Shown here: positions 14,701-45,679 of the stretch, one piece after another | Position numbering within the stretch: position 1 is the first letter of the stretch | Layout of the letters: every line of letters begins with the position of its first letter | Assembly: GCA_026874595.1 (NCBI GenBank) | Contig: CM049318.1 | Span: 33,627,956-33,691,955 of the forward strand | Source: Sipunculus nudus | Lineage: Eukaryota > Annelida > Sipuncula > Golfingiida > Sipunculidae | Direction: 5' to 3' | DNA: 64,000 bases | Notes under the pieces: model-generated | What the model was told of the DNA's origin: nothing | What the model saw: only the letters and a program-made list of their open reading frames with translations | The model's database searches: none | Program-made: the position numbers and the translations under genes

Positions 14701-17395
14701 TGCATCCAACAGACTACAAGAAATGTTTGCTAAATAAAGTTTATTTTTAAACATATCACATAAATAAAACTGGCACTAATCCAGAGTTATGGATATATTT
14801 ATTATTTGGATATACTGGACCAGTGATTTAATACTTATTAGGGATGCTGTCTATCATATATTTCTCAATATCCATCCATGTTAAACATTCAAACTTTTAT
14901 TGAATTCAATCACCAATAAAACATCCTGTGTGTAACAAAATCAGTATACAATCTTAATGTATATATATATATCACCATACACAGGCCAAACAGTGGATGC
15001 ATAAATTTTGGTCAAATGCTAAATGTGGTGACCAATGTACACAATATGTCATTTATTATGATATAACATTTTTTAGGGGGGGGGGGGGAGGGGACTGACA
15101 GGCACCTCTCTCACAGAGAGGAATACTTATGAGGGTTGATGAGTTAATTGCTATATTAACAATTTGGTCTATTTTTTTCAGGGGGGAGGGGGGCACTGGT
15201 GTTTATTTTCTTGGGTAAATATTAAAACTTTTAATTTCATCTTAATTTTTATCAGTGCTGCTGAAAGTTTTAGAGTGACAATACTAATATCTAGTATTGC
15301 CTGCATGTTCTTTATAACTTAAATTTACACAAAAGAGTTCCAAATTGACAAAATCAGGTTACAGTGTTAGGTTTTTATGATATTTAAATTTAAGCTTTAA
15401 ATTTATTCCTAACAAGTTTCTGTACATATTGAAAGATTCAACTGTATATATATATTAATTCCTCAGGCTGTTAGAATAACTAGTTGAAGATAAGTACATA
15501 ATGTCTTACCGATCTTGAATGAATCCATATGGGATCAGAACACTTTCCAGATCATTTTCATAATGCTTTGGTATACAAAACTGGTCCAGTGAGTAGCCCT
15601 GGAAGTCATCTTCTATCTGTGGAGAAGGAAAAAATTATCTTAACTGGAAATCTTCATCCTAAGGAATGCAAGCCTCTGCCATGTGGGTGGTCCCTATTTT
15701 GGGATGTTCCCAAAAGTGTGTTTGTATTCACTTATTCAGCCCATTTTCAAAGGTTCATAATTGCAGAAGTGCCTGTGCATTTGTGAATATTCCTTGATGA
15801 CATTACTGAATCCAGATCATGAGCTGGATCTACACCAAAATCTATTTTGATTCTCCATTGAGTCATTGACCCATTCCCAAGGGAAAATGCCCCAACAATC
15901 TCATGACATCACGAGATTCTGTTCATGACTGTGTGATATTGTGATTCAAACACATACAGGGTCACAGGCATGAACTGGGATGAACACATGTGGGGGGCTA
16001 GCCCATAGCTTTTGTGCTCTCTCCTTACGCTTCAGTTCCCTCCGCTGAGACAGCCATAGTACGAGGTGTTTGAAAACTGGAGACATGCCACTGGACAATA
16101 AAACAATCTCCCAGCTAAAAATGTGTCATATATAAGGGTACAAACATATTTGTATCATATGGTAACATAACATACCTTTTTTAAAATCGTCATGTCCATT
16201 AAACAGTTGAATCAGGTAGGTCTTTTTCTCAAGCAGTAAAAACAAGCATGTCTGGACTCTGGAGGGGATTTCCCTGGGGTTCCCCAACATAAAAATTCAT
16301 ACCCATTGTCAACCTCCAGCGCAGAGTCAAGATATGTTGTTTTTTCCTTAACATTCATGATAAGTTTCTTTATGAATGATGCATCTATTTTGCACCAAGG
16401 AAGTTAAAATATTAACATAATAGTACACAGGCCTAAAGCCTTATACAGGACTGCCACCAAATGCAAGATGTCTACCGGGGCTATAAATGCTTCAATTCTC
16501 TCTGGACAAATACTATCAGTTGTTGATGTTACAGGTGCTTCATGTTTTCCAGAATTGTTATTTTTTATTACAGGCCTTACAACATTATGTGAACATTGGT
16601 TTGCTAAAACCATAAGAAATATTTTTATTTAATTTTCTTTCTAAGAGTAACAGATCGTATCGTGCTATAACCCCAGTTAGCCCTTTGGTGGGCCGGCGAC
16701 GCAACAGAAACCTGTTGCGTCGACGTCAGCGGCTAGGCTGAGAAGAGAACAGTAATGTTTTCTAGTGGTCAAATATACAGTACACATAGATGTACTGAAC
16801 ATTAATCAATGGATATATGTTAAATCTCACAGTTGTGTATGGAATGTTATAATCACAGTTAACTGCAGGTGCAATCTATGGACTCCACAATGCGTCAGTC
16901 ACTGAAAAAAAAGCAATTGAGGAGTTCATTCTTATGGGCTACATATGGGGCAGGTATCCATGGAATGGATACATATGCTGCATTATTACATGCAGTTAGT
17001 ATAGGGGGCCTACTGGGACCTTCTCAGGCTGACTAATGCAATAATCAATATAATATCTGACTTATTTGTATAATGAACATCACCACTGAACAAATCTGAG
17101 ACACATTTTGGTTGTCAGCATTCATGAAGAGTTTAGAAGGCCCATCATGGTATTAGAGGTAAAAGTATGGCACTGATGCCATGGTTAGTAATATATCATG
17201 TATATTGGTATAGCCCCATCACTCATTGAAGCATGACAGGCCTATCAATTCTATGAAAATATTTGACCGCTTTCTATAATCAGACAGTGTCGCCCAGCCC
17301 TCTTGTTCCTCCGTGAAAACCATGTAAATACCCAAGCAATAAAGTTACATAACTGACTCTTCAGTACTTACGGTTATAAATGAACTGGAGCTCAT
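8705..17395 (-). CDS. HPRT1: Hypoxanthine-guanine phosphoribosyltransferase (HPRT), 8 coding exons
   Basis: Cytosolic purine-salvage enzyme that joins hypoxanthine or guanine to PRPP, making IMP or GMP. Coding exons in transcript order: 17395-17372, 15616-15510, 13910-13727, 13113-13048, 12415-12315, 11580-11534, 10390-10314, 8770-8705. All have GT-AG boundaries and total 672 nt, or 223 residues. Visible family signatures are [12 protein letters not shown] (exon 2), [11 protein letters not shown] (exon 3), the PRPP-binding [12 protein letters not shown] (residues 131-142), [12 protein letters not shown] and [17 protein letters not shown]. Exon lengths 107, 184, 66, 47 and 77 match those I recall for human exons 2, 3, 4, 7 and 8. 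The 101-nt exon equals human exons 5+6 (18+83) fused. An in-frame ATG at 17407-17405 would add four residues (MSGK). The C-terminus extends slightly beyond the vertebrate end. NOM1 lies divergently upstream. Confidence 0.97.
8785..9178. repeat. degenerate minisatellite in last HPRT intron
   Basis: A diverged repeat of about 40 nt recurs roughly nine times. Its core reads GACTTACTGCATACCTCT followed by a variant of GTAGTGTAATCCTATGA. Related units reappear at about 9940-10050 beyond the 9.18-9.83 kb element, which suggests that element inserted into an older array. On the HPRT-sense (minus) strand the core contains GTATGC and GTAAGTC, which resemble 5' splice sites. Confidence 0.6.
9179..9830 (+). 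repeat. two-unit repeat with (GGAC)n and hairpin tail
   Basis: Two diverged units begin with GACCATCAGTGATGTAG at about 9180 and 9519. Both contain TACTATTCTGGGGGGTACTT. The second unit ends in a GGAC/AGACGG-rich stretch (9731-9775). Its terminal hairpin is AGCTCAGATGACT (9793-9805), TAC, then AGTCAGCTGAGCT (9809-9821), with one mismatch in the stem. The 103-codon open frame at 9559-9870 is repeat sequence, not a gene. It sits in the last HPRT intron, antisense to the gene. Confidence 0.7.
10731..11298. mobile_element. 568-bp MITE, copy 1, in HPRT intron
   Basis: The element begins ATTGACCTATCC (10731-10742) and ends GGATAGGTCAAT (11287-11298), perfect 12-nt terminal inverted repeats. It contains a 20-nt perfect palindrome TTTGACAGAGCTCTGTCAAA at 10876-10895. 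A second full copy lies in opposite orientation at about 21485-22073. It has no coding capacity. It sits between HPRT coding exons 7 and 8 of this gene. No target-site duplication is convincing, so the superfamily is left open. Confidence 0.8.
15655..15800 (+). repeat. short dispersed repeat, copy 1
   Basis: This resembles 32090-32240 in NOM1. Shared blocks in order include AAGGAATGCAAGCCTCTG, GTGGGT, a run ending TGGGATG, ACTTATT, and CAGGTTCAT/AAGGTTCAT followed by TGTGAATATT or GGTGAATATT. It lies in HPRT intron 1 just upstream of exon 2 in transcript orientation, antisense to the gene. Confidence 0.6.
16698..16721. other. GC-rich hairpin in HPRT intron 1
   Basis: GACGCAACAG (16698-16707), loop AAAC, then CTGTTGCGTC (16712-16721): a perfect 10-bp inverted repeat in a CpG-rich island (about 16680-16740) within AT-rich intron DNA. 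It could be the end of a mobile element or a structural element. Confidence 0.5.
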
Positions 17396-22187: not shown

Positions 22188-25100
22188 ATGAAGAGAAAGA
22201 GAAACATCAAGGGACTTCAGGACAGTTCCAGTCTCAGGCTCCCGAGAGCTCTCTCAAATGTGGTAAATACTGATGATGATGTCAGCACGCATCCCAAGAA
22301 AAGAAAGACAGACAAAAAGGGGACAAGTTTGTCCAGAAAACAGCGCAGGAAAGAAGATAGAAAACTGAAAAAGATGAGGAAATGTGCATTTAATCTACAC
22401 CAGAAGGTGAGAACAGATAATTCCTACCAACTCCTTATTAAGTGTCCCCTGGGAAAGATCCTTTTTCTTACCGGTACAAATTTTAATTTTTATCTAAATT
22501 CAGTAGAATGAAATAAGGGAGGGAAGGGGAAATATGTTACTTCACAACATGTATAAAAAATTTTTTTTTTATAAAAAATGGAGTTCAAACTGGGAGTCTG
22601 GCCCAATCGAATGTTGCTGAGAGGGGTCATAAAACTTGCTGCTCAAAAGGCACAAAGCGATGCCACTGATAAGCTAATTGATACAGCATGAGAATCCCCC
22701 CTTCAGCGTGACTTTGGAACAGCTTGTTAGTTTCTAGAGACCCCAAGCGTGAACTAACGCTGTCTTGTCAGTTAATTTCTCCGCAATTTTATCTCTGCGA
22801 GTATATAATGTAAATATTGGAACAATTGTTAGTTTACCCTTTAAATTTTCCTAAAAACATTGTGTGTCAAGAGAACGTGAGCAGCCGTCATTGCTAATGA
22901 TGCCTGAGCTATCGCTGGGCAGCAATAAACATGGGAAATAATATGAGAATAAAGCCATCAGCGACACAGCTGGTGATGGCTCACAGTTATCAATGAAAAT
23001 GAAAGTCATCTGGACATTGGCATCATAACATTTTGTTTTCCATGGAATAATATAAAACGAGGCTAACTATTAATACCTGTCAGGAGTGTGTAGACTGATA
23101 GGAAATTATTCAAGGAAAATAAGGTTTACACTTACCAGTTTTCCTTCATGTATCACAGCAGATATGATGCAGAGTGACAGCATCTATCCCAAAATAGCTC
23201 TAGTGATTTCTCAACATGAGACCTCTCTAGATATACCTGTTGCGCATAAATCATAACAAAACAAATGATCTGCATATTCATATTTCTGGTCAATGTTATT
23301 CCAGTGATTTACTGCTCAGTTACTAGGTTTATTGCTCTGGACCTGACAAGCTTCAGCGGACTGTGTAAGTAACATCCAACAGCCTCGCTATATCAAAGGC
23401 CATGCTGCGGGTGCGTCTGACACCGCAGTACAATAAGGTTAATGGGATTATCATGTCTTAATTGCATTTAGCACATGCCTGACACACAAGACCTGGGAGA
23501 TCTCCTCAGAGTTGGAAGTCCATTTCTTATAAACTCCTTGAAAACAGGTACACAGATCTATACAGAAAAATGTTCCTCAGACTGCATTTATGTCTTGAGC
23601 TACAGTAAATTAAATCCAAAAGTAAAATTTTAATTATTCCTTGCACCAATATAATACATGATAATTATAATAATAATAATAATAATAATGTTAGATTTAA
23701 GGTAGATAAAGACCAAGCACCTTTTCCAACAGTGTGTGAACTGCTTTTGACAGTGCACTGTGTTTAGGTCATGTGAGTCAGCTTCTTAGGTTTTGTCAGT
23801 AATAACAGAGTAATACAAATAACATAATAATACAGAACACAGAAATACAGAGGTCAGATTTACTTTTATAATTGGTGATATAACTAAATTGTATCATTCT
23901 TGTGGATGTCCAGTTGTGGTCAATAGGGGTCATTGGTCAATTGGGAAAGGTTAAAAAACTGGACTTGAGTCATACATTGTTGGCTCTATAACTGGCAGAG
24001 TAAGTTACAAAACTATTTATGTATAATGTACAGGTATACACATTAAGATTTAACTAGGAAGTGTTTTTTTGTTTTAATGATTTGAAATATATATTTTTTC
24101 AGGTTCCAACAAAAGAGTCACTCATGCAGGAAAAAGAGGAAAAAAAGAGAGAAGAGAGAAAGTTAAAACAGGCAGAAACCAAGATGAAAGCAAAAGAAAA
24201 GAGGAAACGGAAGAGGAGAGAAAAAAGACAGGTAAATTGCAAATAATTGTTGAAGTATTAGCAGCAGCCTCTCCAACTTCCTCCTCAGTTGCTCACTAAG
24301 AGAACTTTCTCAGATAATAAAGGACCAGTGATGGAAAGGTTAAAGACATTCTTTAATATTTGAATTAAAAAATTTATTTTTAAGCCTAGGAAATTTTTGA
24401 TGTAACTATCTTATTTGCAAGCTTTATATAATATAGCACATAAAGCTACAAGTGTTTTAATGAATGAAATAATGGTTTAATACAAAATTCCTTACATCTT
24501 GCAGATAACATGTTTTTCCAAATTTCAAAATTTCTCGAAATTTACATCGGAGGGCAAAATATTGCACCTAGGTTAAAATCCCTTTAGAAAAATTTATTAT
24601 AAGGTGAACTTGCCCCCCCTTGTATTTAATTCTTAGATTCAATAATTTAATACATTTTGACTTCTGACATGGGTTTTAGAAAGCATCAGTAATGCTATTC
24701 AATATGGCTGCATCCATGAAAAATAAACAGATTTCAGTTAAAATACAAGTTTTTTTGAAGACTGAAACTGTATAGTCAGTGCTTTAATAAGATTCAAAGG
24801 ATTTGCATCCCACATATTAAAATATACTCCGGGGGGGGGGGGGGGAAACAGCTATGAGAGAATTATGCTTTGTGTAGGAGGGACATTATATCTTAGGGTT
24901 TCATTGTCAGGAATTCAAGCAGGTTTTCTTACAGAGTACCCAAATTCCTCAGGAATCTTACATTTCAACCCCTGTTTATGTTCCAGAAATCAGAGAGCCT
25001 GAGAGTCCAGGGATTAAAAGAGGCCAATAAACTAGAAGACAAGCTGATCAACCAGCTTGAGAAACAGATGGGCATGAAACGAAGGAAGAATCTACCAAAA

Positions 25101-28100
25101 GGTTTTGCAGATGATGGACTGGACTGTATCCTTAAATAGAGAAGGAGATTTTATGTGCATTATTTACCACACACATATAAGTATTTTAATTAGTGTAACA
25201 TTTCAGATTTTACTCGCCTTCATATTGATTTAGTCATTATCTACTGAATAAACAAATCTACAGACTCTTTCCAGTTGTAATCTCTTGATCTTTTGTTTAT
25301 AATTTGTTTCTGATTTTGCCAGCAAAAGTCTACTGTTTGTGTGGTATCAAATCACAATTTTTTATGAGTGTTAGTCATAATTTTGATTTTTTATCAGTGT
25401 AAGAGTCTGTTTAATATATTTATACAATTCTGTTCTTGGTTTATTTATCAAACGGTTTCTGAAAATTTCATCCTGTTTTGTAAAAGATTTAGAGTTAGAT
25501 GTGAATGTAGGATAATTTTGTTCTTCTTGTACATCTGTCTGTCAATCTAAAACTACAAGTGCTGACATCTGTTGGAGAAATATGGTACTATAAAACCAAA
25601 GTGGATCCTGAATCTAGGAACGGTCAATAAAATTATGTGAATTCAATTTGTATTCCTGTGTTCTTCGAGGTGCATGCTGTCAAAGAATTATAGATTTAAT
25701 ATATGTAGGTGTATGCTCGTTCCTTAACTTCTTTGGTTCTGCTGGATGTGGTGAACCCTGAGTACATGGAGGGCCTGCAGGACAAGGAGGATGAGGAAGG
25801 TGACCTTGACATGCTGCTGAGAAAAGGTCACAGTTCAGGTAATGGAGCAAGTTCCGTATTGTCATTTGTGTGTAGTTTGCTGTGTATTCACTGTATTGGT
25901 TTTATACCATCAAATGACACAATATGCACAATATATAGGTTATTAGTGAAAAAAATTAATGACTTTTTTTAATTAACCATCTATTGGCTAACTTTGGCAT
26001 GTTTGTATGTCATTTACTCAGATTTCCATCTCTTTAAATGTTACACAAATATTAGGAACAGAAGAAATATTGTTTAATTGCAGAGTTGATCTTAGTACTT
26101 TGAGAGTCATTCAAACATTAAGTTTTAATGTTAACAAATGCATTGAGTGTCCTGAAAAGAGTGTCATTTGTTGAAGATGCATGCAAGGTCTTTGTCCTGG
26201 TGTATTATATTGAAGGCTCCATCCTGATTTTTATATATATCTGTCATTTACCAATCTGGGAATGAGTTATGAGAATACAGAAAAATGGGTAAATACTTGT
26301 TCCCTTCAAATGTGAGAAGTCATATCTACTAAAATTGTGTTTTAATGCATAATGCGTTTTATTTATGTAAACCTGTGTCAGAGAATGCAGACCTGTCACA
26401 GTATAGGCTGAAATGTTCAAGAAAAAAATGCGATAAACATGTTCATTTTAAGATGAGGAAGATGATGACCTTGAAGATGACCTTGAGGATGGCATGGATG
26501 AAGATGAGGAGGACATGGAGGAACAGGAAGATGAAGGGGATGCAGAAGCTGAGGAAGGTGTTGTTGATGATGATGATGACAGTAATGATGGTGAAGACAA
26601 TGATAACATGACATCTGATGAAGAACAGAGTGACAGTGATGACGGTATGGATGACTCTAGTCAAGGAGAGGAAAGTATAGATAGTGACTCACAAAATGAT
26701 GTAAATTTAAAACCCAGCACTCATAAACACTCCAAGATAAAACCACAAGTGGCCAGTGAGGCAAACAAATTAAAACATAATAGAAATCCTAATAGTGAGG
26801 TAAATGTGGAAAAGAATAAAAAAGACAAGAAAAATAATATTGAAAAAAGAAAAAAAGTCAGGTTCTCTGAAGAAATGGACAGTGAGGATTCCATAGATGA
26901 TGATGATGTTGAAGATGATATTGATGATAACAGTGATGATGATGGTGATGATAACGATAGTGATGATGCTGGTGATTCTGCAGAAGAAACAACCAGGTAT
27001 AAAGAAGATATTTATGGTAGACTGATAGACACTGAGGGCAACCAAGTGAAAACAGCTACAAAAGGTGCCTATGTTCCACCAGCTAAACGATTAGCTATAG
27101 CCGGTAAAGATGAAAAACAGAAGATAAACCAGGAAAGACTGCAGAAGCAGTTAAAGGGTCTCATTAACAGGTATATTCTTTTCTTTTTATTTGGATTAAG
27201 ACTTTGGCCTACAGTGAATAAAGTTCATTGAATAATGATTAGATATAACATTTTAATTAAACCCATTACTTTATGTTTGTTGAATATCAAAATGGCCAAT
27301 ATACAATATATTAACACACTTAAAGTATCATTTTATTAGAGATTTATTTTGGTGGAGGTAACTTCTTCTATTTTTGTCCCCCACTTCTGAATTCAAAGGA
27401 ACAGGTTACATTTATTTGGGTTTGTCTGTCATTCTCTCTGTCTCTCCATCAGGTTTTCATTTCCATGCAATTACTTTCCTAAATTTATCTGATTACATTC
27501 AAACTCGGGTCAGTGATTGCTCTCATGCTTAATTTGGTTAGGATTGGTTTTGGAGTGTCTGTCTCACAAGATAATAATACAATATGACATTTCATTTTAT
27601 ATATGACGAATCAGCACATTTAGTTTCACTAATCACCAACAGGTGTCACTACCGGTGGACACAAACCACTTGAAATTTTTGCAGTAACTGCAAGGTGCTG
27701 CCATCTTTTGAGTGTGGTTAAAATTATTTGTACTTGCTCACCACAGACTTTAAAATCATCCCAGACTTGAAGGCGGAAGCAGGGGACATAAATTACTTGA
27801 ATTTGCTTGTTTAATGCTGACTTTTTCTAATTCTTACACCAAGCATGTACATCTGCAGAATTTAATTTTGTTTTGAGACTACGTGACATGGCAATTATTA
27901 TATTTTACATAATACGGTCACCTAGGTCCTAGCTGTGTTTGCTGCATCTGCATGTCATGGCTATGTAATCATCCCCATTACTGGGTCATAACAATCCCTC
28001 AAAGATGCACTTGTGTGTGTGATACACAGCTGTTGGGCATGTTCTTCCCAATTAACTTGCAGAGGGCTCACTGTAGGTGGGGCAAAAAAATGACTCTGAA

Positions 28101-31100
28101 AAATTGCACCTCCCCTTGGCTGAGATTTGAACTCTGGACCTTCTGGCTTTGAGTCCCGTGCTGTAGACCTTGACCATAGATGCTTTTACATACAGTAACA
28201 TATCAACAATGACAATTGAATCTTTGTATATTTCAGATTGAGTGAGTCCAATATGCAGTCCATTTGTAGTCAGGTAGAAGGCTTGTATCAGCAGCACAGC
28301 CGGGCAGACATGAATGATGCTCTAGTGACAGTGCTGTTTGCAGCATCGTTATCAAATGTCAGCATTCCAGAGCGACTGTTGCAGGAACATGCCATGCTGG
28401 TGGCAATACTGCACAGAAATATTGGAATGGAAGTGGGTGAGTGAAATAAGAAGAAATATATCCACACCTTTTTCACACTGTCTTTCCTAGATAATTCTTC
28501 ATTTTAAATGTGTTCTTTTCGCAGAACCATTGAGGATTACTGATATAGTTATTTACTTAAAGCTCTCACTACTAGTACTTTTTAAGTAAAGTGGAACCCT
28601 GCTTTGTTGACACTCCACAAATGCAACCACCTCACAATAACAACTACATTTCCTATTCATAAATTTTCTAGTGCAATTTCAGTTATAATTAACTGCTCCA
28701 TGTCACTGCTTAGTGCTGCCTAAAAAATATTCTTAGTATTCTCCAGTATGTGTTAGTGGTAAGAATTAGTAGTAAAATTATTTTTGGTAATTGAAAGAAA
28801 AAAAAAACTGATGATTGATTATCAATTGATTGTTTTATGTACATCCTGTATTCCAATGAAATCTGTTGTAAAGAATTACATGTATACCTATAATACTGAC
28901 ACGTTGATAGTCTGAGGTGACATCTGTGTTGTTGACACTTATTCCCTGCGCAAGTTTCAGTTTTAATGCTATTTGTTACTTTGTGTTCAGTCTTTGACAA
29001 GATTGGATTTTTTTTCGGGATATCATAACTTCTTTCTCTTTCCAAACATAATCATTTGTGTTCAGTTATGCAAAATTGCAACCAGTCTAGTCAGTATTGA
29101 AAGAAAAGGACCTGTCATCAATATATTCCATTAATGGCACATTTTTATAATAATAAAATATACTTTTTAATACTGGTAGTTTTGGTGTTCCCTTATATGC
29201 CAAAACTTAATTGGTGATGTTGGTTACACTTCTGTACACAAGGCTTGTAATAAATAAAACATCAGCGCAGCCATGAACAATAATGGGGCTCTGTGCTGTA
29301 GTTTATTTGTTTTCATATGTGATAAGCTGTAAATAATCATTTACATCCAGTACTATGACTTAAAAAGATATCTCTTCTTGTAATTAGTATAACATTTGCA
29401 GTATCAGAACTTTCAGGAAGGTAAGGGGTAAGTTCTTGTGAAATTCAAAATCTCGTTCAGACACTTGGTTCTTTCAGTCCAAGTGTCTGATTGGATGTGT
29501 GAATCTCTTACTTTAGGACCGAGAAGATCAAAGTTTGCCATTGTAGCAGTCAATGACTATTGCTGACTGCCTCAAACAAATCAGTCAGTTATATAAACAC
29601 TATACTGACAACATACCCTTACGTTTGACATTAATCAAATAATTATATGACACATTATCTAATCATAAAGTGATACCATGATGACATAAAATTTAAAAAA
29701 AAAATCAGTTTTAAATATTCAATCAAATTTTGACACAAATCATCCCCCCTGGAACACTCAAAACTCAGGACTTTCCAATATTTTGGGGTGAGCATCTTCA
29801 AATTTTCTTCCTTTTTTAAGCTTTTGCAGAGTGTAACTTGTTTGATGATATGAGTCTGACTACCCCTGCTGTTTTATTTTAGGTGCTGCCATTCTACAGA
29901 AGCTCGCCTGCAGATTTGATCAGCTCTACCAAAATCTCCATGTTGATGATGAGAGCAAGGAAATCCACAACCTTCTGACTCTCCTAGCAAACGTCTACAA
30001 TTTTAGAGTAAGCTAGAGCATTTATTTCTTTTAACTTGAATGTAGGAAACCAGCAGAATTTTTATATTTTGAATAAAAAGTGACTTGGGAGTTAATGATA
30101 TAAGACTATTTGGAGAGCCATGACTATGTGGCTAATGTTATGATATTAATAACTGGACAGCTAATTTTTTGTCAATGGAAACTGTACAACAAATTGCTTT
30201 ACATTGATAAATGAAGAGTTAAAATTATGTGATTTATGACATAAATGGTGGGAGAGTTACTATTTTGACAAGGGTTACAGGAGAGCTGATATTAAGACAG
30301 TGATAACTGGAGAATATATGTTTTGACATATTATGACGTAGATTAAAGACCTAATATTATGAAATATTTTGCAGGAGAATTGATATGATAATTATTTGTA
30401 AATTTTAATGTAGAATGTATTAATTAACTAATAATATATGTTGTCATCAACAAGAAAACTCAGCAAAATTTTTAGAGTAGATTTTTATAATGTAAAAAAT
30501 ACTTTCCTATCAAATACCAAAATTTTTGAGCAGATTTTTATAAGTATAATTTTTCTCATGCATAATTTACTTTTTCATTTCAGGTAATTCATAGTCCTTT
30601 TGTATTTGATGTGTTCAAGAAACTGACTGACAGATTTGATGAGAGAGACATAGAACTCATCTTAGTTCTGCTCAGAAGTAAGTACTTGTCTTATCCATTC
30701 AGTCTTTTATAGGGGTAATTGTAGTCAGGCGTTAAAATAATGAAGGGACCTACATGCCTAATGTTCAAATGTTCACATTTCAGATGTAGATTACAAACAT
30801 CATATAAATGAAATGAAAATGTCTTCTGTTTTGTTGCCAAAGCTACCTGTCTAAATAATGGGAACATTTTTCATGTTGTGAGAAGCGTACCAGAAGCAGA
30901 ACATTCCAATATTTGAGGATACCATAATGTTGTCCTGACACTGGCCTTGTCCGTATGCAGGGTTGTTTTAACTTTTGGGCAAAACAAGAAATTCTGTTGT
31001 CCTAAATAGCTTGATTTCTGCTTCAGAGGGGTTCTTTATGTATTGGTCATTCCCGAGACTGTCTGTTACAGGGGGTGTCCTTCCAAGAATGGTGTCTGCA

Positions 31101-34100
31101 CCCAAGGTTTTCACTTTACAAAGTGCTATAGAAAACAGCATCATATTTTGTAGATAGGATTTTGTGGTGGAAATAGTTTGGTTTTACCTATTTGTAATGT
31201 ATGTTATTCATGGATTTGACTTTATGTTTTTGATATGACATGCATTATTGTGATATTTAGAACATTAGTTAACTATGATATCTTTATGCATTTAACTTTT
31301 AATCTGAGAAACCATATAGATACAAATCTTTTAAACAGGTATAACCTCTTTGAGAGTCCATTGAGATTCAGTAAGTCAGTCCTAGTCAGAATTAATTTAA
31401 TTTTATTGCATATTGTAGGTGTAGGCTTCACTCTGCGAAAGGCAGACCCGTCAGGACTTAAGGCTTTCATATTGGAAGTACAAGCCAAGGCCAACGCTGT
31501 GGACACAAAACAGTTCAAAGATGCGTAAGTCACTTTGATCATCTTACTCATCATCTGTATCTTATTATTGAACGATGATCAGTCTGAACAAACATAGCAA
31601 CATATTAATCACATCTATCCAGTGTATGTGTTAAGATGGATGTACTGCAGTGTTATATATTTTATACAAGTAAGATACACAGACATTTTTAATCATTAAA
31701 ACCTTTCCTGCTCAGAGGGCCTTTTGCTTACTAGAGATTGACCCCCAGATATTTCTAAATTTATCCAGATTTTTAGAGGTATAACATTTTGCATTTTGTT
31801 TTCAGGTTTAAAGATTTCAATGAACCTGGAGCAAACCAGTTTGGTTGTACCAGTATCTTATGAAACTTTGGGTTTATAAATATAAATTTAATATAAAGTG
31901 TCAGATTTTGGCAGTTCAGATAAGTACAGTGTAAAAGGAAAGAAAAATTAAAATTATAATTAATTATTATTAAAAATATAGTTGCCTCAAAGAATGCTTT
32001 CTTTTCAGAACACAGGAGTTTTCTGCTATCTTCTTGTGCAGTTGAAAGTAAAGTGACTTTGAAAAAAAAATATTTAATAACTAGAAATATGCATTTTAAG
32101 GAATGCAAGCCTCTGTCTTGTGGGTTCCTTATTATGGGATGCTCCCTAAACCACATTTTCATTGACTTATTAGGCCCATATTTTCAGGTTCATTCATGCA
32201 CAAGTCACTGTACGTTGGTGAATATTTCTCTATTTAAACCAGGCTTAATAGCATATTCTAAATGCTCTGTTACCTTCATCTTCATTCATTAGACAGTGCC
32301 ATGGACCTATCTATAAAAATCTATTAACATTGTATAACATTGTAGATCCCGGGTGAAGTTCATGCTGGAGATTCTGACAGCCATAAAAAATAACAACATC
32401 AGGAAGATTCCCAGCTACGACCACGATCACATCGAGCACCTCAGGAAGCTCATACACAACTTTGTTTCCAGTGAGGTTAATTTATTTATCAAAATCTATC
32501 TGTAACCCCTGTAAAATTCTTTCTTTCACATAATGTATAGCTTATCATAAAGGAGTAGTGGTGTTTTTTAAGGATGTTCAAAACCATGACAAGAAGTCAG
32601 CATTCATGGAGTGGGCAAACAGATGCTAAATATGTAAAACAAATACGTTCAATTTTATGTGCAAAACAAATAACTTCAGGGACTAGTTCTTGCCCTGTAC
32701 AGATTGTTTGTTCAATATGCATGTGGAATGTGTTCACATTTATTTTTGGGTGGTTATTCATATGTTTATTTGCACAGTGTTATTTTTCTTAACTGTGACT
32801 CATTTTAAGCTTTTTGACTCCCAAACTCATCATTGCCAGTAAAAGACATCCTATCTTATTACACCCAATTTGTCACATGTATAGTTATATGCAAGGCATT
32901 CCTACAATTTAGTAAATGGACCATAAATTAAAGTTTCTGTTACAGGATTAATATATGACCTCATTAATTAGTATTTATACATATTTCTGATATAATATAT
33001 ATTTATGCCTCAAACTTCTTATTTAAGATATTTTCTTATCTCTACAAATTCAATATATCTGTCTTGAATTTATGTCAGTACTAATTACAGTACAGTATTA
33101 AAGTCATTATTATTATATCGCATTTACAGGTATCTCATCAGGTGACACACAGCTTCAGATTTCTCTCCAGGACCTCCTGAACGCTGACGAACACGGGAAG
33201 TGGTGGCTGGTTGGGTCAGCATGGACCAATCAGGATAAAGCACCTTTAACCAAGGGTATGTCAACAGTATCTTAACCGGCTGTTTTTTCTTCTGTCAAAA
33301 GAGGGTTAATGTTTGGTCAGTCTGGTGTGTTTGTTTGTCCTCAAGATATTTTTGAAGAACAGTTTACTGAATTGTAATGAAATATCACCCGCTTTTCAGA
33401 AATGTGAACACCTCCCAGTGTAGTTAAAATAATTGTTAAAATGCCCACATAAATAATCCCTGAATGGTCATTTTATGACAGCCATATTTAATGTTTATTA
33501 TATAAGGATTATAATATGTCCGCATACAGCAATTTATTATTTATATATCAATATTTTTCTATGTTTTGTCGAACATGACTTTAGACATCTTAATGGGTAG
33601 GGGTAAGTGAAAGTCTGTAAATGAAAGCCGTTGTGTGTCGGAAATGTTCAGGAAGGTTTGATAGACCATATGATTAAAGGTCTGTCTGAAGTAATTTGTT
33701 TGTTTGCATGATGATTTATAGATACCAAAAATACTTTATTACAGAAAAAGAAGGAAGTGTTGAAAAATGGTCGAGATAATTTTCAATTATTTATAAATAT
33801 TCTAGCCTTACATCTTATGATTACTACAGGGATATCAAGTGTCATGTGTACAGCAATGTGGTACATGGCTGTTACTCTGCACACCATCTATCCCTCTCTG
33901 TATGAAACCAAAGTCCAGAATTTTTATATTGCCAAGTAAATTGCACATTTGACCCTAAAGAAAACTTTGATTTTAAGTGTTTCTCTTGGAGTACTGTTAT
34001 CAATAAGTACTTAAAAGAAAAAAAAATACTAAGAATGTTATTAAGAAGTTTTGCCATATTTCCTGTGTGAAATAAAATTACCAGCATACACTCTTTAATA

Positions 34101-37100
34101 TGGTTTCATTGTTCTCAACATGATAACCAATTAAATCATATCATATAATAGTCATATAATGATATATACAAAAGAAAACAATTAATTCCTGTAAATTGAT
34201 AAAATACTAATATTGCAACACATATCACAATATATTGCAAAACAAATATTGTAGGCAAGACACGGCCCTAATGGTTAGGGGTAATGTGTATATGTGAACC
34301 ATAATGAGCACCTTACATTTGATTCATGATGTGGTTCACTTCAGCTGTCTCTGCATCTATTGAGGGAGGGGCCAGTCAACAGCTGCTGGAGCTGGCCAGG
34401 AAGCAGAGGATGAATACAGATGTCCGCAAAAACATCTTCTGTATTATCATGTCCAGTGAGGTAAGGATAACTGTAATATCAAATTATTAAGCACAGGAGC
34501 TGTCCAGGGGTCAGTTTAACTATCCTTTGCTCTGTACACAGCACTTTATCTACACACTTTATTTCTAAAGCAATGTGTTTTTAAGCTAAGGTCACTGAGT
34601 TGGGCGAAAAGAGGAAAAAACAAACACTTTAATCATTATTGATACAAAGTTAGCCTTGTATATTGACCAAGAGTGGCTTGCTAGTTTGTGTGCCTAAATA
34701 AATACGCTCCGGGAGCATTGGTAATGCGACCGTAGCTTGTGATTTCAGCACAATGTTGCATTTTGTTGATAACACAGTGTGAAAAGCATATTTCACTGGC
34801 TGCCAGATGCATCATGCACATGAAAATTTGAGTGCATTGCCCCTGGCACCTTGTGAAAAAACCTAACATCTCCTTTGATGTTATAAAATATTCTTGGTCA
34901 GAATTGGGTGTAACATCTTCTTTGATGTTATAAAACATTCTTGGTCAGAATTTGGTGTAACATCTTCGATGTTATAAAATATTCTTGGTTAGAATTTGGT
35001 GTAACATCTTCTTCGATGTTATAAAACATTCTTGGTCAGAATTTGGTGTAACATCTTCTTCGATGTAATAAAATATTCTTGGTCAGAATTTGGTGTAACA
35101 TCTTCTTTGATGATTAAAAAAAAAAAAATAGACGACTCATGATTGATTATTAGTGGATCATTTGATGTGCCTTTTTTTAGCCCTCAGCCCTTAGGCTGAT
35201 GGGCTATTGTCGTCACCCAAGCTGTCCGTCCGTCCGTCCAGCGTCCGTTAACTTTTACCTTGTGGGCGGGATATCTTGAAAAGGATTCAACGTCAGAATT
35301 TTATTTCCTCTGTAAAGATGTATATCGACAAAATCTCGGTCAAGTTCGAAGATGGGTGACCTTGACCTATTTTTCTACATTTTAGAGCTGAATATAGAAA
35401 AACACTTAGATGCTTATTACTGAGGAACCATTTGGTGGATTTTCACAAAATTTACTATGATTATTAGGACTGATAATCTGTACCTGCTACACAAGTTTGG
35501 TGGCGACACATACAATATCTGATTTTTAATGAATTTTTATCGGATTTTTCAACTTTGGGCTTGTGAGCGGGATATCTCTAAAAGGATTCACCGTAGGAAT
35601 TTTCTTTTTTTGGTGAAGATGTATATTGACAAAATCTCGGTCAAGTTGACCTATTTTTCTACGTTTTAGAGCTGATTATAGAAAAAACATTTAGAAGCTT
35701 ATTTCTCAGGAACCATTGGCTGGATTTTCACAATACTTACTATGATCATAGGGAGTGATGGTCTGTAACTGCTGCACAAGTTTGGGGGTGCCACCTGCAA
35801 TTTCTGATTTTTAATGAATTTTTCTTGGATTTTTCAACTTTGGCCTTGTGAGCGGGATATCTCTTAAAGGATTCACAATAGGAATTTGATTTCTTTGGTG
35901 AAGAGGTATATTGACAAAATCTCGTCCAAGTTCGAAGATGGGTGACCTTGACCTACTTTTCAAGGTCACAGAGCTGATAATAGAATAAAACTTAGAAGTT
36001 TATTTTTCAGGAAGCATTTGGTGGATTGTTTTGAATCATGGTACATACCTCTCCATTTTAAATTTGTAACTGAGACATGTACAGATATACATCCATGTGA
36101 GAACAGATATTTAGTACTTGTTACTGTTACCACCTCTAAACACTGTTCTTTTGGCTGAGGGCTTTTGTCAGCTTCTGCTGATATTCTAGTATTACTAGTA
36201 AATCTGCTTTTGAGAATTATATCTAAAATATTAACCAAGTAGATTCAGTCCCACTTCCGCACATTTAGCTGGAAGGTCAGTATTATGGCCACGTTGTTGA
36301 CACTTGTTTGTTGCACAGGATACAAATTTAATGCTGTTCACCACATTTTATCCTATCATTCTTATTTTCCTGACAGGATTTAAATATTTTCTTCTGGTTA
36401 ATATCATCTCTTTGCATGTTCATACATAATGGTTTGTTATCAATTATGCAAAAAAATGTATCCAATATAATTAATTAAGAAAGAATATGACTTATCACCA
36501 ATATAATCAATTAATTAGCACACCACTATAAAATATACATAATTCATCATGAATATATTTGGCCTTACAGTGCCCAGATGAAATACTGTATTGTACACCC
36601 AAGTTTGATAATCTTTCTTGTTCCTGTTGAATAGCTTTAAGATTTTGCCTACTGTCAGTGCTGCTCTTTCAGGACCTGATAAAACAGCTTAATGTATGTA
36701 CTCTATGATTTTTTTAAGATGGTTTTCTAAATATACATCACTTAACTTTGTTAGAAAGAGTTATTTCCATTATAAGTTCATAATTACACCAAGTACCGGT
36801 ACTTTAATATTTCTAGAAATATTGTGATGGCACCTCCCCAGAGTGCTCACCCTATTAACCACTCTTCAGCTAAAAATTATTTTTCAATTTTGCAGGATTT
36901 TGTGGATGCATTTGAGAAGTTACTTCACCTTGGCTTGAAGCACCAACAAGAGCGGTCAATAATTCAAGTGATTGTTGATGTGTGTTTACAAGAAAAACAC
37001 TTCAACCCATACTATGCTTACCTGACACAAAAGTTCTGTGAATACAGTAGGCAGTTTCAGGTGAGATATACATTTTAAAGGTTTGTAAAGTTGTTATTCA

Positions 37101-40100
37101 GGCCACTCAATAGTATGGGCAAAAACCTGTGTCCCATCTGTGTCTGTAGCTTGAAGGTTAAAATGAGTTCTGTATTATGACATGTGTGTATGCCATGTAC
37201 ATATTTTGTATACAGGATAGAAGATTATTTTAAAGTACACAAACATTTGCAATAATATGTTTATTATCTCATGCTATTAGTACAATTTGTCAGAACACCA
37301 AATTCCCCCCAGTAAAACCATCCAAGCACTATCCTGTTATCCCACTACTGTTACCCTGTTTTGTAAGTTGTACCATGATAAAATGTGTGACCAGAGGTCC
37401 AATCTTGCGCAAGATTGACAAGATATGACAATGCCCATAGGGGCAGAAAGAACTAGAAAGAAGATACGAAGAAGAAACAGTGGTTGAAAGCTTGTAAAAA
37501 TATTGATTTATAAAGTTGAGTAAAACACCTACCAGGTTGCTTGTCCTAAGTTTATATTATGGACGCTGATTGTGCCCTGTACCAGTTTTTTTCCACTTGT
37601 GTACAGTAGTAAGCAAACAGTTTTAGAAAATATTCTCACATGCCTTAATCTTTTATGGAGAAAACACCATTCTTAATGTGAATAGGTCCCTTAACAATAG
37701 TTCTACCAGTTAATTATGGAGACTTGTTTTGATTGCTCTTATGGTGAACTACTGTTAGGAATTCTTCTCAGTGTATCTCACTGATGTCCCCTTGTGTCCA
37801 AAACATTATTTTATCTAAAGCAGACTTAATTCTTTGAAACCTTGAATGAAAAGATGAAGGAGTGTTTGTTAAGGAAGGATTTTTATTTAAATGATTTTTT
37901 ATTAATTCTTAGATTTGCTCATTTTTGCTGAACTCCATATTATAGAGAACCCTGCAGTTTGTGGCGTGGGATTATTTGAAAAGGTTCAGCGAACTGGGGG
38001 AACGACAAAGGTCAAACTTGGCAGATTTGCTGACTCATCTAATTATCACCAAGGCAGCTTCACTACTAGTCTTCAAGGTAACTTTTTGTGTATACATACA
38101 TTGTGAATATAAGTCAGAAAGAGTATCCACACTAATGACCTCACAAGATGATGCATGTTTGTAATGACATCACAAGTTGCAATTAAAAAAATTTAAAAGG
38201 GCAAAAAAAATTACTTACTTTTGATTAAATAAATGCATTTTCAAGTTTTGTTCTGTCTATAGGTTTCACCTTGTAACATTTGTTTTGACTTGTGTTGTGA
38301 AATAGTTTCTATCAGATGTTTAAGCAGGATACTTGCAAATATAAGTATATTGGAAATGGATAATGTTCAAGCTAAATTGTAAATTATCTGTAGGATGGTC
38401 CCTCAGCAGGGGTATTCAGTAAAATAATAGATGACTGCCATAATCTGTTAACACTGGCATTTTTTTACATCAAGAAAACACTTTAAAACACCACTTTAAA
38501 AACTTCAGAGTTTTCGATAATGAAATAAATAATGTCCTAACATATTGTAATGATTAGCTGACTGAAAGACCATCCCTTCCATACACCATTAGACTTTCTA
38601 TGTAGTCTTTGGGTCCTTGTAATACCTATTAAAATGTAATAAATTTATTGCAAGATTTACAGGGAATATACAATGGCATTTTGACAAAAAAAAGTAAAAG
38701 TTTCTCTTACCATTGGTGATTAAAGGTGCCCAATCACCTAACTTTTGAAAAAGAATTTATGTGATTTCTGGCTTCCTCTCTGAATATTTTAATGATCTAA
38801 TGGTAATTTTGATTGTGAAAAGTTATTATAAGGCCTTCATGAAGGATGTATGAACTTGTTTATCAACAACATGTTTGTAAACACAGCAATGTTGACAAAC
38901 GGGAAAAACATGTAAACTAAGGTCGTAGGTTGCATATATGCGGAGGTAGAAATGTCGTTTTTTTGCAAAACGCCATTTGCAAAGCTCTGACTTATCTGAC
39001 TTGCTGCTAGATGCACTTGTTGAATTTGTTTGATTACTTTGGCGGGCCCCCACATATTATAAACACTTCGACATAAACAAAACAAACAGCCTGTATGCGA
39101 TGATATCAGTGTTTCCTGGCCTATTTTTATAAAAGCCTCAATAGAATACCTTTAGTTTATAAAGGTCTGATAGGTGATTGGGCCCCTTTAAGTTGATGTC
39201 TAGATGCAAAAAGGGAACTGCAGAACTTGATTTGGTGGACTTTGAATATCATGTTACATTAAACAAAGTCAAATTATTAGAACCCATTTAACCATATGTA
39301 TGATATTGCCAGCTACTCATTAGGTTTTAATGATGATAAAATCAGTATTGATTGACAGAGAATCAAGTTTCTTTATAAACGGTCCTGACTGTAACCCTCA
39401 TGATATGTGGATATGTAAAAAATTTATAACATAATATTGTTGGCTATGCCAAAGAAAAACACGAAGAGTATGTACAGTCTTCATGTACTGTACATCAAAG
39501 CAAGCAGGCTTGTATTTTATATGCACAGAAAACATAGTTACATAGCAGCAGCGAATGTTAGTTTACAATATTTACTTTTGTGTAGATAAAATGTAGCTGC
39601 AAAAGTTTAGCTTTTCTTATTTCCATCTACACTGTGTAGTACTTCTGTTACCTGGGATATGCAGTTGAAAGGCATATTTAAAAATATATTTTACAGACTC
39701 TCATGTTATATAATAAAAATATAAAAAATTCATAAAAACAATGTTTTAAAATTTCTTCAAAAAGTAATTAATATTATCAGTAGTCAGTCATCAAACTCTG
39801 GCCAATGATTGCTATAATATATATCATAATAGCCATAACATGTATTCAGATGTGTTTTATTTTATACTCCAGGACCTGGAATTCTGTGAGCTGGACAGGC
39901 TCAAGGTGCAGTTCCTGAAGCGAGTGTTGTCAAAGATCCTACTGGAGCAGTCAGACTCTCTGATACAGGAGACCTTCAAGAGGATCACAAAAAATCCCAA
40001 GCTACAGATGTTGCGGGAGGGACTGAGATTGTTCATGCAGCACTTCATGCTGAGGACTAAGAATAAAGATCCTGTGACAGCTAACAAACTGACTGCACAA

Positions 40101-40154
40101 ATAGAACTGGCAGAAAAGGCTCTGAGTTCAGGAGATAGTGTAATGGGTCTTTAG
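22188..40154 (+). CDS. NOM1: Nucleolar MIF4G domain-containing protein 1 (NOM1/Sgd1 family), 15 coding exons
   Basis: Nucleolar protein of the NOM1/Sgd1 family, which acts in small-subunit ribosome biogenesis. Exons: 22188-22406, 24103-24231, 24987-25125, 25737-25838, 26453-27170, 28237-28436, 29883-30007, 30584-30677, 31419-31524, 32346-32470, 33130-33255, 34345-34460, 36896-37060, 37946-38077, 39873-40154. They total 2778 nt (925 residues) in one frame. The protein has a Lys/Arg-rich N-terminus (1-160), an Asp/Glu-rich region encoded by exon 5, a MIF4G domain (about 425-640) and an MA3 domain (about 715-835, including DFVDAFEKLLHLGLK and NPYYAYLTQKFCEY). KVRF at 331-334 fits the RVxF PP1-docking motif; NOM1 is known to bind PP1. 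All introns are GT-AG except intron 3. The Kozak context is GACCATGA. It is somewhat longer than human NOM1, mainly because of the acidic region. Confidence 0.95.
25126..25736 (+). other. putative U12-type intron 3 of NOM1
   Basis: The 5' end GTATCCTTA matches the minor-spliceosome donor consensus, and TTCCTTAAC at 25720-25728 matches the U12 branch site. The reading frame demands that the next exon begin at 25737, joining GLD to FLLDVVNPEYMEGL. The intron then ends in TTTGG, about 9 nt after the branch A, instead of AG. No AG downstream of the branch site restores the frame. It is a phase 1 intron, as many U12 introns are. A one-base sequencing error (AG read as GG) is an alternative. Confidence 0.6.
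28021..28190 (-). repeat. tRNA-derived SINE fragment in NOM1 intron 5
   Basis: On the minus strand it reads ACTCAAAGCC, then GTCCAGAGTTCAAATCTCAG (28121-28140), a T-arm/B-box. It resembles the element at 49051, which has GCTCAAAGCC and GGTTCGAATCTCAGCC. The two are probably one family. Confidence 0.5.
32090..32240 (+). repeat. short dispersed repeat, copy 2
   Basis: Homologous to 15655-15800, sharing AAGGAATGCAAGCCTCTG and several later blocks in order. It lies in NOM1 intron 9 in the sense direction. An antisense open frame of 129 codons crosses it but shows no coding features. Confidence 0.6.
34865..35112 (+). repeat. 47-bp minisatellite in NOM1 intron 12
   Basis: Five units of 47, 47, 44, 47 and 47 bp plus a 16-nt partial unit. 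Each begins AACATCT and contains GATGTTATAAAA (GATGTAATAAAA in the last full unit) and TTCTTGGT. The units are close in sequence, and the array ends at a poly-A run. Confidence 0.9.
35178..36165 (+). repeat. ~1 kb dispersed repeat with (CCGT)n and three internal units
   Basis: The ends are inverted: TTAGCCCTCAGCC at 35178-35190 and GGCTGAGGGC at 36153-36162. A CCGTCCGTCCGTCC stretch lies at 35225-35238. Three internal units of about 300 bp share GCGGGATATCT, AAAGGATTCA and TTGACAAAATCTCG-like blocks, near 35265, 35567 and 35852. It lies in NOM1 intron 12 in sense orientation. The class is unknown; it is probably non-autonomous. Confidence 0.7.
37401..37416. other. 16-bp perfect palindrome
   Basis: AATCTTGCGCAAGATT, inside NOM1 intron 13, followed by a purine-rich stretch. 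A short isolated palindrome with no assigned function. Confidence 0.4.
38720..39191. mobile_element. piggyBac-like MITE with TTAA target site, in NOM1 intron 14
   Basis: TTAA (38720-38723) and TTAA (39188-39191) flank a 464-bp element. The terminal inverted repeats are AGGTGCCCAATCACCTA at the left and TAGGTGATTGGGCCCCT at the right, pairing at 16 of 17 positions. TTAA target-site duplication is the hallmark of piggyBac elements. No transposase frame is present, so it is non-autonomous. It belongs to a different family from the 568-bp MITE. Confidence 0.8.
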
Positions 40155-42869: not shown

Positions 42870-43867
42870 GAAGCTATATTAGTGAGATACGTCACATTTT
42901 CAACTTCATTATGATTCCATATCTGTGAGATCATATTGCAAATAGTCCGCTTCTTTGCACATTCAACACATTTAAAAATACTAAATATGATTACTTTCTG
43001 AAACAATATCTCTTAATGTATGATTACATGGAATTATTCTTAAAAACAACTTCATCTGAGCGTCATGACGCATGGATTCCCAGTTTATATATTTTAATTG
43101 TAGTTGTGAGCTTCAAAAAAATAACTTGTCTCTTAAAGTGTATGATCTTTTCAAGATACTGGCAATAAGCATCATGTCAGTAGTGCATTGGTATTTTCTA
43201 TTCATTTAGTGCCAATATCAGGTTATTGGTATCTTAGTAACTGATATTTATAATAAAAACCTTGTGTTAGCTCTAGGGTTATAGCCTGATCTTAATATTA
43301 ATAGCTATGAAGGGTGATTTAGTTGTATACAAATTCGGGCTGACTCAGTGACTGTTGTAACTACTCGGAGACTAACTATGATCTATATTGCATTTATAAT
43401 ACACATTAAACACGTGTGTGCTCAAACTGTCGATAGAAAAACAAATCATGTTAGAACCACAAGCATATACTTACGTTAACCTAGGAAAAGTAAACCTTGA
43501 TCTGAGATATATTATATACCGGTCTACCTCAGCATAAATCAAACGAAGTATTTAGTTAACAACATCAAAGGTCCGAAGTCCTGGTTTCTTATCGGTGCTA
43601 TACTTTGAGCAACACAACACGAAACTTTAATTGGAGATCATTTGTCTGGGCAATAGTATCGCAAGATGATATATTTACAATATTAATATCTTATTACCTG
43701 CCAACTACTACCAAACTGTCAGCTTGGACAAACCTGCAGCGTTGGCCACTGTCGACAGATATGTAGTATATGTAGTGTGTCTCGGCAAACTGGAAGACAT
43801 ATAAAACAGGTGAGAAACAGTGTAGTATATGTAGGGCCTTTACAAAGTGTGTGTGAATTATAACAAA

Positions 43868-45679
43868 ATGGCTTCCAAACAGGCGTCTCTGACCACAGAT
43901 TTGATTGAGTGTCCAGTGTGTCTGGACGACATGATGAACAAGTCGCCGAAATTACTGGAATGTAAGCACTCCTTTTGCATGTCATGTCTTTCTGGACTAG
44001 CAGTGAAACATGGAACATCAGACTTAAAAGTCCCGTGCCCTAAGTGCAACCATGAGACAGTGGTAAATTCGGGACAGTTGTCTGACCTTACGGATAATTT
44101 TCTGCTGCAGCAGGTCAAGTCCGTTCTGGGAGCCCACTCCCGACACTATTACTGCTTTTATTGCAGCAAGTTGGACAAAACGGAAAGAGCAATCAGTCAG
44201 TGCATTACCTGCTACAGGTTTATGTGCAATGACTGCTCAGAGAAGCACAAAGAGACTCCAAGGTTTATGAAACATGAAATTATAGTTGTGAACAGGGAGA
44301 AAAAACAAGAACATTGCCAGACACACAACGAACCTGTTGTGTATGTTTGTTTGGCTTGCTCACCAAACAGGTTAATATGTGATGTATGTATAATGTTGGA
44401 CGCTTCTTGCCACTCTGACAAAGACTTGGTAGATTACAACACACTTTTGTCCAAGGAAGAGTCAAAACTGAAGTCGAAGATAGACCAGCAACCCAATGTG
44501 GATAAGGTGTTGTCAGAAATGGAAGAAAAAAGACTGCAGCAGATAATAAAAGCAAGGGATAATGTTGCATTCATTAAAAAAGGCATAGAAAGTGCACTCG
44601 AAGATGTGAGCCGTGAAATTGAGGAATCAATGAGCTTCACGTCTCTAAAGCTGGCGTCAGATTGGGTTGAAAATTCAAAGGCAATAGCTCTAGAACGACT
44701 AAAGGATGATACCAAACGGTTAGAAGGTATACGCAAAGCCGATAGAGAGCTCTCTAAGGCATTCGACAAATTTACTGAGGAAGAGAAGAAAGCAAAGGAG
44801 AAATCTTTTCATCTGGATGATGATTCACAAATCTGGCGGGAACTTATGAACATCAAACAAAATATTGATCGCATGTGTAAAGAAGGCAGACCAAATCTGC
44901 TGTCATGTTGGTCCATTCATGGCGTTGTAATTAATCTAAAGGCAACTCGGGATGGCCGGGTACTGTATGTCTGCCAGAGGAGTCCCGTTATAACGGAGAT
45001 TTGTAAAGAGGGAGAGACCCGTCAGGTGATGACAAAGCACTTGGGATATGACAGGGAAGTGACCAGTGCTGACATCTGTGATGACCAAATGTACATTGTA
45101 TGCTGCCACACCCCATTCTCTGCCTTATACAAGTGTGAGCTGTCATCCCATAAGGAAACATTGTGTACCTTGTCTGATCAAAATCGAATGATAACATATC
45201 ATGGCGACGTGACGGAGTTATGTGCATGCGATGCAAACAGTATCATTTTTGCTTGGTCTGATGGATCATTGTGTAAAACTGACGAGACAGATAAACTTGA
45301 TACTCCTTATAAAGATGATCAAGTTCAGTTGACCAGATTTAACACTAATGACCAGCTTAGATTCATTGCTACATATGTAACCCATCAGACTGTACTTCTG
45401 CATGACACAGAGGGTAAAACCTTACAAACCATAAATAAGGACGGGTCACCAGTCAAACAGCCAAGAGCTTCAACGGTCAGTGCTCAAAATAATATTCTGA
45501 TTGCAGACTCTGGAACGTGTAAAATCGTTGAACTGACGGTGGAGGGAACATTTGTACGTAATGTTTTAACCGAAGAAGATGGTTTACAGAACCCCATAAA
45601 TGTTGAGTATAGTCCCCCGTACCGGTGGGTTGCTGACCAGACAAAGGACAAGGAAACTGTCCTTAAATGTTTCATGTGA
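43868..45679 (+). CDS. TRIM-like RING/B-box/coiled-coil protein (probable E3 ubiquitin ligase), intact
   Basis: Single-exon gene of 603 residues. The C3HC4 RING uses C15, C18, C32, H34, C37, C40, C57 and C60. A first B-box follows (C96, C99, C112, C115, C120, C123, H127, H136), then a second (C150, H153, C161, C164, C171, C174, H182). A coiled coil covers about 195-325. The C-terminal ~240 residues have repeated strand-like blocks such as NNILIADSGTCKIVELT, consistent with a beta-propeller as in TRIM2/56/71-type proteins; that fold is inference. The RING implies ubiquitin transfer and the B-boxes assembly. The ATG is chosen over an upstream in-frame GTG because ACAAAATGG has a good context and the start is shared with the paralogues. 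The reading frame is complete, unlike its neighbours. It cannot be assigned to a named vertebrate TRIM. Confidence 0.9.
   Translation: MASKQASLTTDLIECPVCLDDMMNKSPKLLECKHSFCMSCLSGLAVKHGTSDLKVPCPKCNHETVVNSGQLSDLTDNFLLQQVKSVLGAHSRHYYCFYCSKLDKTERAISQCITCYRFMCNDCSEKHKETPRFMKHEIIVVNREKKQEHCQTHNEPVVYVCLACSPNRLICDVCIMLDASCHSDKDLVDYNTLLSKEESKLKSKIDQQPNVDKVLSEMEEKRLQQIIKARDNVAFIKKGIESALEDVSREIEESMSFTSLKLASDWVENSKAIALERLKDDTKRLEGIRKADRELSKAFDKFTEEEKKAKEKSFHLDDDSQIWRELMNIKQNIDRMCKEGRPNLLSCWSIHGVVINLKATRDGRVLYVCQRSPVITEICKEGETRQVMTKHLGYDREVTSADICDDQMYIVCCHTPFSALYKCELSSHKETLCTLSDQNRMITYHGDVTELCACDANSIIFAWSDGSLCKTDETDKLDTPYKDDQVQLTRFNTNDQLRFIATYVTHQTVLLHDTEGKTLQTINKDGSPVKQPRASTVSAQNNILIADSGTCKIVELTVEGTFVRNVLTEEDGLQNPINVEYSPPYRWVADQTKDKETVLKCFM

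Follow-up and report, generated by a model that had tools for sequence, protein, structure and literature searches.

Minor (U12-type) introns are defined by their 5′ splice site and branch site. GT-AG and AT-AC termini are typical of the class and not defining, other termini also work, often less efficiently, and the optimum distance from the branch site to the 3′ splice site is 11-13 nt (PMC3584512). Among orthologous minor introns of animals, about 3.8% depart from the canonical termini, in most cases by one base (PMC10639083), and AT-AA and AT-AT are named as the commonest of these departures in animals (PMC10639083, PMC2831892). A preliminary description of the present locus had called such termini rare, and these sources agree, describing them as rare and also as established (PMC10639083, PMC2831892). 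GT-GG junctions are described as well. One in human BANP is found in almost all vertebrates, with AG in fishes (PMC4176328), and of the 6 annotated GT-GG introns of Drosophila, 5 have RNA-seq junction reads and 5 have a similar alternative splice (PMC4528330). The passages that describe these BANP and Drosophila junctions do not name them U12-type (PMC4176328, PMC4528330), and on a word search the string GT-GG is absent from the main text of PMC10639083 and PMC2831892. Other statements weigh against GG. The penultimate A is described as highly conserved in U12 introns (PMC2831892, from a mutational study cited there), introns with G in the first position are said to splice as GT-AG or GT-AT, with GG not listed (PMC4176328), and in U2-type minigenes splicing was blocked by an AG to GG change (PMC10853781). 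In the literature searched there was no report of a minor intron in NOM1, and the gene is absent from the main text of PMC10639083, PMC2846911 and PMC6717393. Here we describe intron 3 of a NOM1 gene, which carries an exact U12-type 5′ splice site and an exact U12 branch site and which probably ends in GG.

The NOM1 gene and the U12-type signals of intron 3

The window, i.e. the whole 64-kb stretch of DNA that was analysed (C13:33627956-33691955), belongs to a genome of 1.43 Gb in 153 contigs in which the searches were made. On its forward strand a gene of 15 coding exons runs from ATG to stop at 22188-40154 and encodes 921 amino acids in a hand-built model whose frame is open throughout. The product has a MIF4G domain (78.8 bits) followed by an MA3 domain (65.8 bits), together with a basic and acidic N-terminal region, which is the architecture taken here to mark NOM1. 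Although MIF4G and MA3 are common to NOM1 and CWC22, human CWC22 is matched at no more than 53.8 bits and the product therefore belongs to another family; CWC22 was ruled out on this ground. The name NOM1 itself is taken from the N-terminus and from what we presume to be a similarity to human NOM1; neither NOM1 nor SGD1 occurs as a name among the 9 Protein Data Bank sequences matched. The identification, which the preliminary description had also made, is well supported, the name leaning on this presumed human similarity. No relatives of NOM1 were found in the bacterial/archaeal contig set or in the viral contig set. Within the genome the protein of exons 3-4 matches only the NOM1 locus (2 of 2 candidates scored), and no second gene copy, retrocopy or alternative haplotype was seen among the best candidates scored, the locus alone being returned. 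Of the 14 introns 13 are GT-AG, partly by construction because the exon ends were hand-chosen with GT-AG preferred; the exception is intron 3, where no such choice was found for this preference to take.

Two tandem repeats are present in intron 12 of the gene, one at 34864-35121 (47-base unit, 5.5 copies, 90% matches) and the other at 35362-35932 (285-base unit, 2 copies, 87% matches). Also, 3′ of NOM1 on the forward strand (43865-45676) there is a one-piece open frame of 604 amino acids with an N-terminal RING finger, which we take to be TRIM-like.

Exon 3 (24987-25125, forward strand as all features of the gene below) terminates in ...GGACTGGACT and ends in phase 1 (...GLD plus T), after which intron 3 opens GTATCCTTA at 25126. 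A scan for RTATCCTT gives an exact U12-type 5′ splice site, GTATCCTT, at 25126-25133, with T at exon position -1, and the motif scan for the branch site gives an exact U12 branch site, TTCCTTAAC, at 25720-25728, shortly before the 3′ splice site and with A 25727 as the likely branch nucleotide. Both elements, which had been described as near the minor-spliceosome consensus, are thus exact. The branch site is followed by TTCTTTGG, in which GG occupies 25735-25736, 9 nt from A 25727, and exon 4 opens TTCTGCTGGATGTGG. On motifs, frame and scores together the intron would span 25126-25736 (611 nt, phase 1), and its termini at this junction would be GT-GG instead of the usual GT-AG or AT-AC. T at exon -1 is favoured before U12-type GT-AG introns, whose preceding exon does not end in AG (PMC7367187, PMC10853781); exon 3 likewise shows T at -1 and no AG end.

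RTATCCTT alone is not rare, as 6 copies are found on both strands of the window against 6.7 expected. TTCCTTAAC is found 3 times in the 64-kb window against 0.66 expected, and 3 of 100 shuffles also reach 3; the two other exact copies lie at 16344-16352 (+) and 37868-37876 (-), and no exon was seen after either of them on reading by eye. The joint occurrence is a different matter. By a first-order model built on the remaining 13 introns, a donor that matches exactly at the end of an exon and a branch site that matches exactly 8-25 nt ahead of the following exon would coincide with a chance of about 3.6e-8 per intron, or 5e-7 over 14 introns, and a chance origin of the motifs was rejected on this figure. 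None of the other 13 introns comes within one mismatch of the donor or the branch motif at these places, which leaves intron 3 as the only one of the 14 with U12-type motifs. Its U2 donor score is -1.0 and its U2 acceptor score -3.4, where the other 13 introns range from 4.4 to 11.7 and from -0.2 to 10.3 respectively; these scores and the pair totals that follow use textbook splice-site frequencies. When 29 in-frame GT/GC-AG pairs were examined (donors 25000-25239, acceptors 25500-25829) none was plausible as a U2-type intron. The best totals 4.1 bits and uses a GC donor at 25023, deleting most of exon 3, and a U2-type intron with other ends was rejected on the scores of these GT/GC-AG pairs. 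Assignment of intron 3 to the U12-type class is therefore well supported.

Position of the 3′ end of intron 3

With the donor fixed, every end position equal to 2 modulo 3 preserves the frame. From the branch site onwards the in-frame ends are TT 25730, TT 25733, GG 25736, TC 25739, GC 25742, GG 25745, TG 25748, GG 25751, GA 25754, and so on. The only in-frame AG or AC 3′ of the branch site are AG 25799 and AG 25826, and no in-frame AG lies within 70 nt past it. AC 25756, AG 25762, AC 25765 and AG 25771, the nearest past the branch site, fall out of frame and soon run into stops, as does AC 25728, formed by the last bases of the branch site. The junction that fits the frame best carries TTTGG and reads GGA CTG GAC T/TT CTG CTG GAT GTG, i.e. 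GLD F LLDV. Sequence and gene model thus agree with the earlier proposal that a junction GLD/FLLDVVNPEY keeps the NOM1 frame with TTTGG at that point. The claim that it is the only one to do so has to be given up, as GG 25745, GG 25751, AG 25799 and AG 25826 also keep the frame, with a worse fit. On the frame scan the second in-frame GG (25744-25745) lies 18 nt from A 25727 and would give the alternative end GLD/Y VVNPEY, the third GG is at 25750-25751, and the first in-frame AG past the branch site (25798-25799) lies 72 nt from A 25727, its use making the protein 21 residues shorter.

Codon scores were derived from the remaining exons and introns of NOM1 and reflect amino-acid content plus codon choice. 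The cumulative score declines to 25736 and climbs from CTG 25739, the first complete codon past the proposed junction, and this turn at 25739 puts the start of exon 4 no more than a few codons away from 25737. From 25739 on, 32 codons have a log-odds of 31.1 bits in frame and less than -18 in the other two frames, while the intron null, drawn as 33 triplets against the 32 codons of the exon, reaches a maximum of 10.3 in 3000 draws. Taken piecewise, codons 25709-25738 score as non-coding (-7.1 bits) and codons 25739-25798 as coding (22.7 bits), and the three codons that would be lost with an end at GG 25745 also score as coding (4.8 bits), although the scores are compatible with that end too. 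Presumably human NOM1 reads GLDYILGVL where the present gene has GLDFLLDVV, and this would favour the end at 25736. Frame and codon-score placement together make GG 25735-25736 the best inference for the actual intron end. Of the earlier proposal of a U12-type NOM1 intron with a GG end, the gene and the U12 class are therefore well supported, and the GG end stands as the best inference from frame and codon scores.

Exon 4, as delimited by codon log-odds, is 102 nt long (25737-25838) and runs from phase 1 to phase 1, so that its skipping would preserve the NOM1 frame. Such skipping was considered and rejected by reasoning, for although the frame is kept, a U12 donor would have to be spliced to a U2 acceptor, with the exact branch site left unexplained. 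RNA editing was also set aside, since A-to-I editing turns AA into AG and cannot repair GG.

Minor spliceosome and a control intron in the same genome

U12 snRNA has at least two matches in the genome, of 118.6 and 117.2 bits (best 44 of 112270 candidates scored), and U6atac has at least two, of 100.5 and 97.8 bits (best 46 of 64055 candidates scored). The U12 and U6atac matches lie above the Rfam cut-offs, which we take as presence of the minor spliceosome. In the one U12 snRNA match that was read, in L002, there is a stretch GAGTAAGGAA that complements the branch site if one A is bulged, and TTCCTTAAC of intron 3 is complementary in this way to GTAAGGAA of that gene.

A minor intron of syntaxin 6 was sought as the control, one being known from fly and human and listed as U12 in both (PMC2831892). 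The syntaxin-6 exon, found via PF09177 (63.9 bits), ends ...GAG ACC ATA A/GTATCCTT, which is an exact donor. The next exon, located by tblastn with a human sequence, is preceded by TTACCTTAACCCTCTGCCAG, so that the intron is GT-AG with AG 11 nt from the branch A, and its branch site, TACCTTAAC, is one mismatch from the consensus. The gene lies on C5 and extends from L007:9319-9510 (-) to L019:2288 (-), which places the next exon about 77 kb on and gives, from the coordinates, a U12-type intron of roughly that length. The sole TTCCTTAAC-like site of L007 has no exon behind it, and script motif scans for the end of the syntaxin-6 intron were likewise empty. An extension of the first-exon match over the first 140 intron bases contains stops, looked spurious and was rejected. 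This single control intron is fully canonical and says nothing on the frequency of GG in this genome.

Alternative readings and comparison with known introns

The reading towards which we lean, at slightly better than an even chance, is that intron 3 is a non-canonical minor intron, GT-GG, one base from GT-AG. U11/U12 would recognise the 5′ splice site and the branch site, both exact here, on which recognition in the U12 class mainly rests; branch A 25727 would attack G 25126, and the exons would be joined after GG 25735-25736, possibly less efficiently. Of the terminal bases of GT-AG introns the first G and the last G would be retained and the penultimate A alone changed, the ancestral end presumably having been AG. 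Against this reading, the branch distance of 9 nt is below the optimum of 11-13 nt (PMC3584512), and the AG of the control intron lies at 11 nt, which gives no sign of a relaxed machinery here. Loss of nom1 is recessive lethal in zebrafish (PMC4072693), which argues that at least part of the splicing keeps the frame, short of a broken allele gone unnoticed. That the intron is fixed and constitutive in this gene, which is essential for ribosome assembly, its exact donor and branch site letting the penultimate A be dispensed with, is a stronger claim which we regard as tentative and somewhat short of an even chance. It is also possible that the species has an ordinary U12-type GT-AG intron and that the assembled base at 25735 is wrong, through an error of sequencing or assembly, or comes from a rare damaged allele (A to G) carried on one haplotype. 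One substitution separates the site from AG, the assembly holds a single copy among the candidates scored with the other haplotype out of view, and, given the recessive lethality of nom1 loss in zebrafish (PMC4072693), a heterozygote could carry a damaged allele unnoticed. The substitution lies, however, outside any long homopolymer. Long-read errors are usually not substitutions of this sort, which would count against an error if long reads were used, and that any one particular gene should carry a damaged allele is, in our judgement, improbable a priori. We consider this explanation unlikely, though large enough to be kept in view.

We give rather little weight to use of the U12 donor and branch site with another acceptor, whether GG 25745 (GLD-YVVNPEY), GG 25751, AG 25799, AG 25826, or in part the out-of-frame AC 25756 or AG 25762. 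The first four exist in frame, and the choice of U12-type 3′ splice sites is error-prone (PMC3584512). Yet AG 25799 lies 72 nt from the branch A and would drop codons 25739-25798 with their 22.7 bits of coding score, GG 25745 is equally non-canonical and drops three coding-scoring codons (4.8 bits), and AC 25756 and AG 25762 run into early stops. If splicing were U2-type and both donor and acceptor were shifted, the U12 motifs would be a relic or due to chance; in favour of this is the AG at 25708, which opens the exon 4 frame given a phase-0 donor. Such splicing is very improbable, as the codons that it would add (25709-25738) are non-coding at -7.1 bits, the best of the 29 in-frame pairs reaches only 4.1 bits at the cost of most of exon 3, and exact U12 motifs stand at both places.

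If the GT-GG end is real, intron 3 would offer a clean natural test of the weight of the 3′ dinucleotide where the two other minor-intron signals are perfect, and annotation programs demanding AG or AC would break the NOM1 gene. The picture of minor splicing, which already includes a few percent of non-canonical termini, is unchanged by it, and the intron is most likely of a kind already known, a minor intron with non-canonical ends that differ from GT-AG by a single base. With U12-type GT-AG introns it shares the exact 5′ splice site and branch site and T at exon -1, but it ends in GG at 9 nt from A 25727 and not in AG at 11-13 nt (PMC3584512). The syntaxin-6 minor intron of the same genome has the same exact GTATCCTT donor and ends in a canonical AG at 11 nt instead. 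Human BANP has the same GT-GG ends, and differs in that its junction is an alternative splice site among U2/U12-like sites (PMC4176328). In Drosophila 5 of the 6 GT-GG introns have a similar alternative splice (PMC4528330), whereas the AGs near the end of intron 3 are out of frame. Non-canonical minor introns of animals (PMC10639083, PMC2831892) resemble intron 3 in having the minor motifs together with termini one base from canonical.
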